From Selenomonadales bacterium (GTDB lineage Bacteria > Bacillota > UBA994): a stretch of DNA of 64,000 nucleotides. The stretch covers positions 1-64,000 of the forward strand of contig JAGXRZ010000020.1 in the NCBI GenBank assembly GCA_018335585.1, read 5' to 3'. The notes under the pieces are model-generated. The model saw only the letters and a list, made by a program, of their open reading frames with translations. It made no database searches and was not told the origin of the DNA. A program made the translations under genes and the position numbers. Shown here one piece after another: positions 12,231 to 13,299 of the stretch; the stretch's first letter is position 1; each line of letters opens with the position of its first letter.

Positions 12231-12842
12231 ATGCCAAGTCTCGAATTCCTGATTATCGCAGTCGCCGCTTACCTGCTGGGCGCATTCCCTACTGCCTTGG
12301 TCGTCGGCAAATTCCGCAACATTGACATCACCAAACACGGTAGCGGCAATATCGGCGGTACTAACGCCATGCGCGTCATGGGGGCAGGGCCGGGGCTAGC
12401 GGTAATGGCCATAGATATACTCAAAGCGGCCTTACCGACCTATGTAGCCGCGCATGTTATCCCTCTTGAGACATGGCAGGTCATGACGGTTGCTCTCGCG
12501 ACCGTCATCGGACACAACTGGTCCGTGTACATTGGGTTTAGGGGAGGGAAGGGCATAGCTTGCACGATTGGCGCATGCGCTGTGCTGTTTCCGGCCGTGT
12601 TGCTGACGGGTTTTGCTGTGTTTGCCCTGACCATAGCCATCACCAAGTACGTGTCCCTTGGCTCCATCCTGATGATGACGGCTTTGCCCATTCTCCTGTG
12701 GTTGTGGAACTACGGCCTAGAGTATATTTTGTTTGCGCTTTTGATACTGGTCATAGGCACGTACCGCCATCGCTCGAACATCAAACGGCTCGTTACAGGA
12801 ACGGAGAGCAAGATTTGGGGCAAAAAAAACAGAGGGGGTTAA
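12231..12842 (+). CDS. plsY: Acyl-phosphate glycerol-3-phosphate acyltransferase PlsY
   Basis: 203 residues with five predicted membrane helices. It transfers an acyl group from acyl-phosphate to glycerol 3-phosphate to make lysophosphatidic acid, the first step of phospholipid synthesis in most bacteria. The three cytoplasmic family motifs are visible: GSGNIGGTNAMR at 37-48, GFRGGKGIA near 103-111, and the SIL/RHRSNIKRL region near the C-terminus. It follows the S41 protease gene closely, and its stop lies inside a hairpin shared with the convergent glutaredoxin gene. Confidence 0.95.
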   Translation: MPSLEFLIIAVAAYLLGAFPTALVVGKFRNIDITKHGSGNIGGTNAMRVMGAGPGLAVMAIDILKAALPTYVAAHVIPLETWQVMTVALATVIGHNWSVYIGFRGGKGIACTIGACAVLFPAVLLTGFAVFALTIAITKYVSLGSILMMTALPILLWLWNYGLEYILFALLILVIGTYRHRSNIKRLVTGTESKIWGKKNRGG

Positions 12843-12852
12843 CATCCCCTCT
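12823..12852 (-). terminator. Terminator of the glutaredoxin gene, overlapping the plsY end
   Basis: AGAGGGG (12831-12837) pairs with CCCCTCT (12846-12852). Read on the minus strand the stem is followed by a run of eight T, so it mainly serves the minus-strand gene; on the plus strand it may also weakly end plsY transcripts. Confidence 0.8.
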
Positions 12853-13116
12853 TTACTGCAGTTGCGACAACTCCGGCTGGCCGAAGATGATCAATTCACC
12901 CTCGTTTACGACCGTACAGGGAATACCTACACGGCCTTCTTTTCGTACGTCGGCAAACTCAGCGCGATGGTCGCGGTACTTAAGAAACGCTTTCAAATTA
13001 GCCATGCCGGCCGTAATATCTACGTATTGGAATGGTATGTTGTGATGTGAAAGAAACTCTTTCACGGGAGCACAGCCGGGTCAATGCTGACTGCCAAAGA
13101 GAACGATATTTTTCAT
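12853..13116 (-). CDS. Selenocysteine-containing glutaredoxin-like protein (UPGC motif)
   Basis: Read through an in-frame TGA (13083-13081), this is an 87-residue thioredoxin-fold protein beginning MKNIVLFGSQH-U-PGC. Selenocysteine at 12 and Cys15 form U-x-x-C exactly where glutaredoxins have C-P-x-C. The later GIPCTVV segment (64-70) fits the cis-Pro loop. The ATG at 13116 follows GGGAGG by six bases; no such site supports the internal GTG after the TGA. A SECIS-like hairpin begins 15 bases after the TGA. Probable role: thiol-disulfide or peroxide-linked reduction in the cytoplasm. Selenocysteine glutaredoxins are known from clostridia. No selA, selB or selC lies in the window. Confidence 0.85.
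13047..13083 (-). promoter_or_regulatory. Bacterial SECIS-like element with its UGA
   Basis: On the minus strand the TGA (13083-13081) is followed by 15 bases and then a perfect 7-bp stem, GTGAAAG/CTTTCAC (13065-13059 with 13053-13047), with a 5-base loop AGTTT. UGA-to-loop distance is 22 bases, and the loop has G at position 2; both fit the published bacterial SECIS rules (loop about 16-37 bases after UGA, G near the loop start). Confidence 0.75.
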
Positions 13117-13144
13117 GTCTAACCTCCCTACAGCGTGTGTGCGC

Positions 13145-13183: not shown

Positions 13184-13259
13184 TGGCAGGGGCAGAGGGA
13201 CTCGAACCCACAACCAACGGTTTTGGAGACCGCTACTCTACCAATTGAGCTATACCCCT
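13184..13259 (-). tRNA. trnW: tRNA-Trp (anticodon CCA)
   Basis: A 76-base cloverleaf on the minus strand. Acceptor AGGGGTA pairs with TGCCCCT (one G-U); D-loop AGCTCAATTGGTAGAGTA; anticodon loop CTCCAAA with CCA; T-loop GGTTCGAGTCC; discriminator G and an encoded CCA end (13186-13184). Confidence 0.97.
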
Positions 13260-13270
13260 GCGACAAAACA

Positions 13271-13299
13271 ATTATACGCGAGTGCGGCGTCTCGGTCAA
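13271..13299 (-). promoter_or_regulatory. tRNA-Trp promoter
   Basis: On the minus strand TTGACC (13299-13294), a 17-base spacer and a perfect TATAAT (13276-13271) lie just before the tRNA 5' end. Near-consensus housekeeping promoter. Confidence 0.85.

Follow-up and report, generated by a model that had tools for sequence, protein, structure and literature searches.

Evidence for a selenocysteine-containing glutaredoxin with a conserved SECIS hairpin in a Selenomonadales assembly

Gene organization and reading frame

The window analyzed here, a stretch of 64,000 nucleotides at the start of contig JAGXRZ010000020.1, carries on its minus strand a small gene that is interrupted by a TGA within its active-site motif and lies directly downstream of a tRNA-Trp gene. 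The features of the locus, in the direction of transcription, are as follows.

13271..13299, minus strand: sigma-70-like promoter, TTGACC-17-TATAAT (11 of 12 consensus positions; consensus match only)
13184..13259, minus strand: tRNA-Trp with CCA anticodon (ARAGORN on locus L005; Rfam tRNA, 66.1 bits)
13123..13129, minus strand: ribosome binding site AGGGAGG (from the sequence, 6 nt before the ATG)
12853..13116, minus strand: putative Sec-containing glutaredoxin gene, 87 aa, U12-P-G-C15 (translation with TGA read as U, PF00462 score, AlphaFold2 model)
13081..13083, minus strand: in-frame TGA, codon 12, predicted to be read as selenocysteine (from the sequence; the same codon is TGA in orthologues of the class)
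13047..13065, minus strand: predicted bacterial SECIS hairpin, GUGAAAG-AGUUU-CUUUCAC (fold, covariation, invariant codons, linkage to TGA across the phylum)
12831..12852, minus strand: intrinsic terminator after the glutaredoxin gene, a 7-bp stem followed by 8 T (consensus match only)

An earlier note, made from the sequence alone, had proposed that a TGA here occupies the place of the first Cys of a glutaredoxin active site (UPGC), that both flanks belong to one protein, and that the ribosome binding site lies upstream of the TGA. Each proposal is borne out. Between the start ATG (13116-13114) and the stop TAA (12855-12853), the TGA at 13083-13081 is the sole interruption of the frame, and AGGGAGG (13129-13123) precedes it. 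Read-through gives MKNIVLFGSQHUPGCAPVKEF..., 87 aa in length, and the frame on both sides is conserved in orthologues. Codon 12 falls on the leading residue of the [C/U]PxC motif, the catalytic Cys of PF00462, and the protein matches that family at 34.5 bits (gathering cutoff, 22.9) when queried with Cys at position 12; the cutoff is passed nowhere else in the assembly. Among the 1558 TGA triplets of the window, seven precede a perfect hairpin of at least 7 bp that conforms to the SECIS rules for loop and spacing; the glutaredoxin TGA alone also has long open frames on either side (97 and 75 codons). The conjunction of TGA, hairpin, and two open frames at this locus is not due to chance.

As the earlier note had anticipated, ORF calling yields only a 70-aa piece beginning at GTG 13065, and a glutaredoxin selenoprotein of this kind would escape ordinary annotation. 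The ORF caller's result could be taken at face value, with translation restarting at this GTG so that only the C-terminal piece is made, but the GTG has no evident ribosome binding site ahead of it and is itself the start of the hairpin stem, and homologues have GCA, GCG, or CTG in its place. Moreover, a product starting there would be without the active site and strand 1, although homologues conserve the N-terminal residues. We consider such a restart highly improbable.

An AlphaFold2 model built with ten homologues (pLDDT of 87.7) has its structural elements arranged much as in glutaredoxins, plus one additional helix. The segment U12-C15 precedes helix H15-24, placing the U/CxxC motif at the N terminus of helix 1, and a predicted cis-Pro-type loop contains G64 and P66, neither of which varies in the alignment. 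By fold, the closest PDB entry is cGrx1 (7c10); other glutaredoxins and the methanoredoxin 5cax come next.

The hairpin downstream of the TGA

The hairpin (GTGAAAG-AGTTT-CTTTCAC, 13065-13047) begins exactly 15 nt past the TGA and has a perfect 7-bp stem with an AGUUU loop, just as the earlier note had described it; RNAfold adds an inner A-U pair, which extends the stem to 8 bp and leaves GUU as the loop. A hairpin as long as this arose in 10 of 20,000 shuffles and in 23 of 20,000 synonymous recodings of the same peptide. The published model of bacterial SECIS elements calls for a loop of 3 to 9 nt, a stem of 4 to 16 bp, a distance of 16 to 37 nt from the UGA, a G within the first two loop positions, and a minimum free energy (MFE) of at most -7.5 (PMC13188914). 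The loop (AGUUU), stem (7 to 8 bp), and spacing (22 nt) all agree with this model. The 45 nt starting at the UGA fold with an MFE of -10.1, inside the limit, which is reached only with the flanks, since the bare hairpin (-7.1 kcal/mol) just misses it. A search of Rfam at the locus returned no SECIS family match. The earlier note counted the continuous frame, the ribosome binding site, and the hairpin as three independent signs of a selenoprotein; all three are present, but they are not fully independent, since the conserved peptide VKEFLSH is encoded by the hairpin itself.

Comparison among homologues points to selection acting on the RNA itself. In 17 Sec sequences, 89.7% of the hairpin cells are paired, and most of this signal is lost in slid registers, none of which is comparable. 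There are six two-sided stem changes in the outer pairs (four from U-A to C-G and two from G-C to A-U), which sit on only two base pairs in related sequences, so that their count is not a strict probability; these changes in the outer stem are compensatory. Among the 16 Sec homologues that keep the core, the hairpin codons are AAA, GAG, and CTT in 16/16 and TTT in 14/14, while elsewhere in the same genes these codons are used 58%, 47%, 13%, and 64% of the time, respectively. Thus AAA-GAG-[T/G]TT-CTT is invariant in the 16 hairpin-bearing homologues and other synonymous sites drift; four of the sequences used (L031 to L034) were retrieved partly via the peptide KEFLSHHN, so that their peptide is ascertained and their codons are not. 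In G043 and G084, Phe TTT is replaced by Val GTT, which changes the loop from AGUUU to AGGUU and still fits the G[G/U] rule.

Selenocysteine and cysteine at codon 12 among homologues

In the class, the gene was found in 11 of 15 genomes. Codon 12 is TGA in every copy, and the other ten copies are 79% to 33% identical to the window protein. One of the 11, in G003, was left out of alignments as nonindependent. Its contig (G003:C214; L024, L028) is nearly identical to G005:C221 (L025, L027), although the two bins belong to different genera, and G003 holds a second, more distant plsY; for these reasons, the contig is probably misbinned. Further TGA homologues occur in the wider phylum (G043, G084, G121). 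The earlier note had called for a comparison of homologues at residue 12: orthologues keep the TGA with the frame conserved on both sides, and a distant homologue at 41 to 44% identity (L055) has the Cys form CPDC and neither the KEFL peptide nor the hairpin. Cys also replaces the UGA in L060 and L061. The Sec homologue of G121 (L054, UPQC) has no conserved hairpin core downstream and may use another SECIS element.

These comparisons bear on the reading of the TGA as a nonsense mutation in a pseudogene whose full protein is no longer made. The standard code does read TGA as a stop, the gene is absent from three genomes of the family, and the copy in G014 (L044) has a further in-frame TAG near its 3' end (FG*PDLAEL), which may reflect a sequencing error or incipient decay into a pseudogene. 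Against this, the same TGA recurs in other genera at 57 to 64% protein identity with the downstream frame clearly constrained, and throughout the phylum the TGA goes together with the hairpin. Conservation of TGA and frame in independent genera in effect refutes a pseudogene, which we hold to be extremely unlikely.

Selenocysteine machinery

The earlier note had asked whether selA, selB, selD, and a tRNA-Sec gene occur in the rest of the genome. All four were found in the same assembly (2.34 Mb in 69 contigs, 96% complete, 4% contamination), each above its curated cutoff, in one 6-kb cluster (G000:C39:30765-36917).

C39:30765-32108: selA (573 bits, above cutoff)
C39:32150-34039: selB (371 bits, above cutoff)
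C39:34847-34939: tRNA-Sec, anticodon TCA (72.8 bits; gathering score, 47)
C39:35994-36917: selD, L018 (362 bits, above cutoff)

The selD gene carries its own in-frame TGA, in the loop GGGUASKLGPG, and SelD is likely itself a selenoprotein; the Sec pathway therefore appears to be in use. Since selA was found in 8/8 genomes of the family searched, the pathway is unlikely to be an artifact of one contaminated bin. TGA ends 7 of the 44 open stretches of at least 200 codons in the window and is otherwise a normal stop. A genome-wide reassignment of UGA to an amino acid such as Trp or Gly would also account for a TGA read through in a conserved gene, but these 7 of 44 stops, the CCA anticodon of the tRNA-Trp, the complete Sec pathway, and the Cys of homologues at codon 12 leave it the least probable alternative of all.

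Genomic context

The tRNA-Trp gene directly upstream does not encode a UGA-reading tRNA. The predicted sigma-70-like promoter, a strong one, stands before both genes, which are possibly cotranscribed. Between them lies a GC-rich inverted repeat, CGCCTTCC-ATG-GGAAGGCG, followed by TTTT (window positions 13171-13146, minus strand), a possible tRNA terminator or attenuator that the terminator scan did not pick up. The convergent gene on the other side of the glutaredoxin gene was taken, on its sequence, to be plsY, which encodes glycerol-3-phosphate acyltransferase.

In G001, G002, and G004 (L075, L076, and L077), plsY adjoins tRNA-Trp and the intervening glutaredoxin gene is missing, which makes its absence there real; the sequence stretch from G006 ends at this very point. 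These junctions indicate that the gene was gained or lost as a single unit, and because selA remains in genomes of the family that lack it, the gene is either dispensable or recently gained.

A hairpin signature across the phylum

We scanned 399 genomes of the phylum for the signature TGH-6-TGY-9-AAAGAGKTTCTTT. It matched at 46 places, of which 43 carry TGA and 3 a Cys codon (TGC/TGT), and the reversed pattern gave 0 matches in the same 399 genomes. In a search for xPxC-KEF[L/F] sites that allowed any codon, the core codons were present in 35/41 sites with TGA compared to 2/14 sites with Cys. These two Cys sites (L100 in G202 and L094 in G337) are Cys-containing YruB-type glutaredoxins with an intact SECIS hairpin core, and they look like cases of recent change from Sec to Cys with a fossil SECIS element, or like the step before the reverse change.

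Viral contigs gave 17 matches to the signature. A Sec glutaredoxin is encoded by just one of them, L126; the rest seem to be chance matches and were rejected. L126 (IMG/VR contig 3300020032_000016), filed as viral, is identical over the element to the gene in G133 and is probably host DNA beside a prophage. Many bacterial SECIS elements have been described as bearing no mutual resemblance (PMC13188914). Here, one hairpin sequence varies very little among the Sec glutaredoxins of many genera, which provides a usable DNA signature for finding them (TGA, 6 nt, TGY, 9 nt, AAAGAGKTTCTTT).

Proposed mechanism and significance

We infer Sec insertion and catalysis from the computed frame, SECIS element and its conservation, machinery, fold, and Sec/Cys exchange. 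The locus almost certainly encodes a SelB- and SECIS-dependent selenoprotein of glutaredoxin fold in which UGA codon 12 is read as selenocysteine. SelA would make Sec-tRNA-Sec from selenophosphate supplied by SelD, and the hairpin 15 nt past the UGA would act as a bacterial SECIS element that recruits SelB with its Sec-tRNA-Sec. The ribosome could then read the UGA as selenocysteine, so that helix 1 begins at a U-P-G-C active site. Attack on disulfides or related substrates would fall to the Sec selenolate and resolution to the thiol of Cys15, and the product may thus act as a fast thiol-disulfide reductase of the UxxC type.

A broader proposal, to which we give even chances, is that the protein represents a divergent, longer subfamily of Sec glutaredoxins that lies outside current family models and whose SECIS core (AAAGAGKUUCUUU) is almost constant through much of the phylum and also outside it. 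In that case, the peptide KE[F/V]LS would be set in part by the RNA element, and spread or loss would affect the gene as a self-contained unit, as the plsY/tRNA-Trp junction suggests. Most of what is known of these organisms comes from assemblies, and the locus adds to them a well-supported selenoprotein of a subfamily that annotation models do not cover; the two closest named relatives (L027, L028) are metagenome-assembled genomes of uncultured bacteria, labeled candidate division NPL-UPA2 and Bacillota.

Comparison with known selenocysteine glutaredoxins

Sec glutaredoxins have been known since early selenoproteome surveys (PMC1794560; PMC1088965) and are covered in a 2026 review (PMC13188914; references 85 and 109 therein). 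The window protein is a further case of these, in a divergent, longer subfamily. No NCBIfam model scores it above cutoff. The UXX-star families (NF041114, NF041211, NF041212, NF047338) resemble it in having Sec at the same position of a glutaredoxin-like fold; families 1 and 2 have UxxT or GxGU motifs (PMC13188914), whereas the window protein keeps the resolving Cys. Its scores are far under their cutoffs (NF041212, 25.0 versus 66 bits; NF041114, 22.3 versus 72 bits), and membership was rejected.

The YruB-type Sec glutaredoxins (TIGR02196; L031 in Pseudalkalibacillus and L086 to L105 in the phylum) share with the window protein UPxC and VKEFLS and, at the same distance, the SECIS core AAAGAGUUUCUUU. 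In contrast, they are shorter and lack its insert, and L031 scores 89.6 bits on TIGR02196, compared to 39.2 for the window protein (cutoff, 88.55). The cGrx1 of PDB entry 7c10, a Cys form, is presumably CoGrx1 of Clostridium oremlandii, a natural selenoprotein, judging from the review's references. Like the window protein, CoGrx1/cGrx1 has a glutaredoxin fold with a UxxC active site, and 7c10 is the second-best solved structure by sequence. Identity is only about 25%, however, and an additional helix (H52-60) makes the segment before the cis-Pro loop longer in the window protein.
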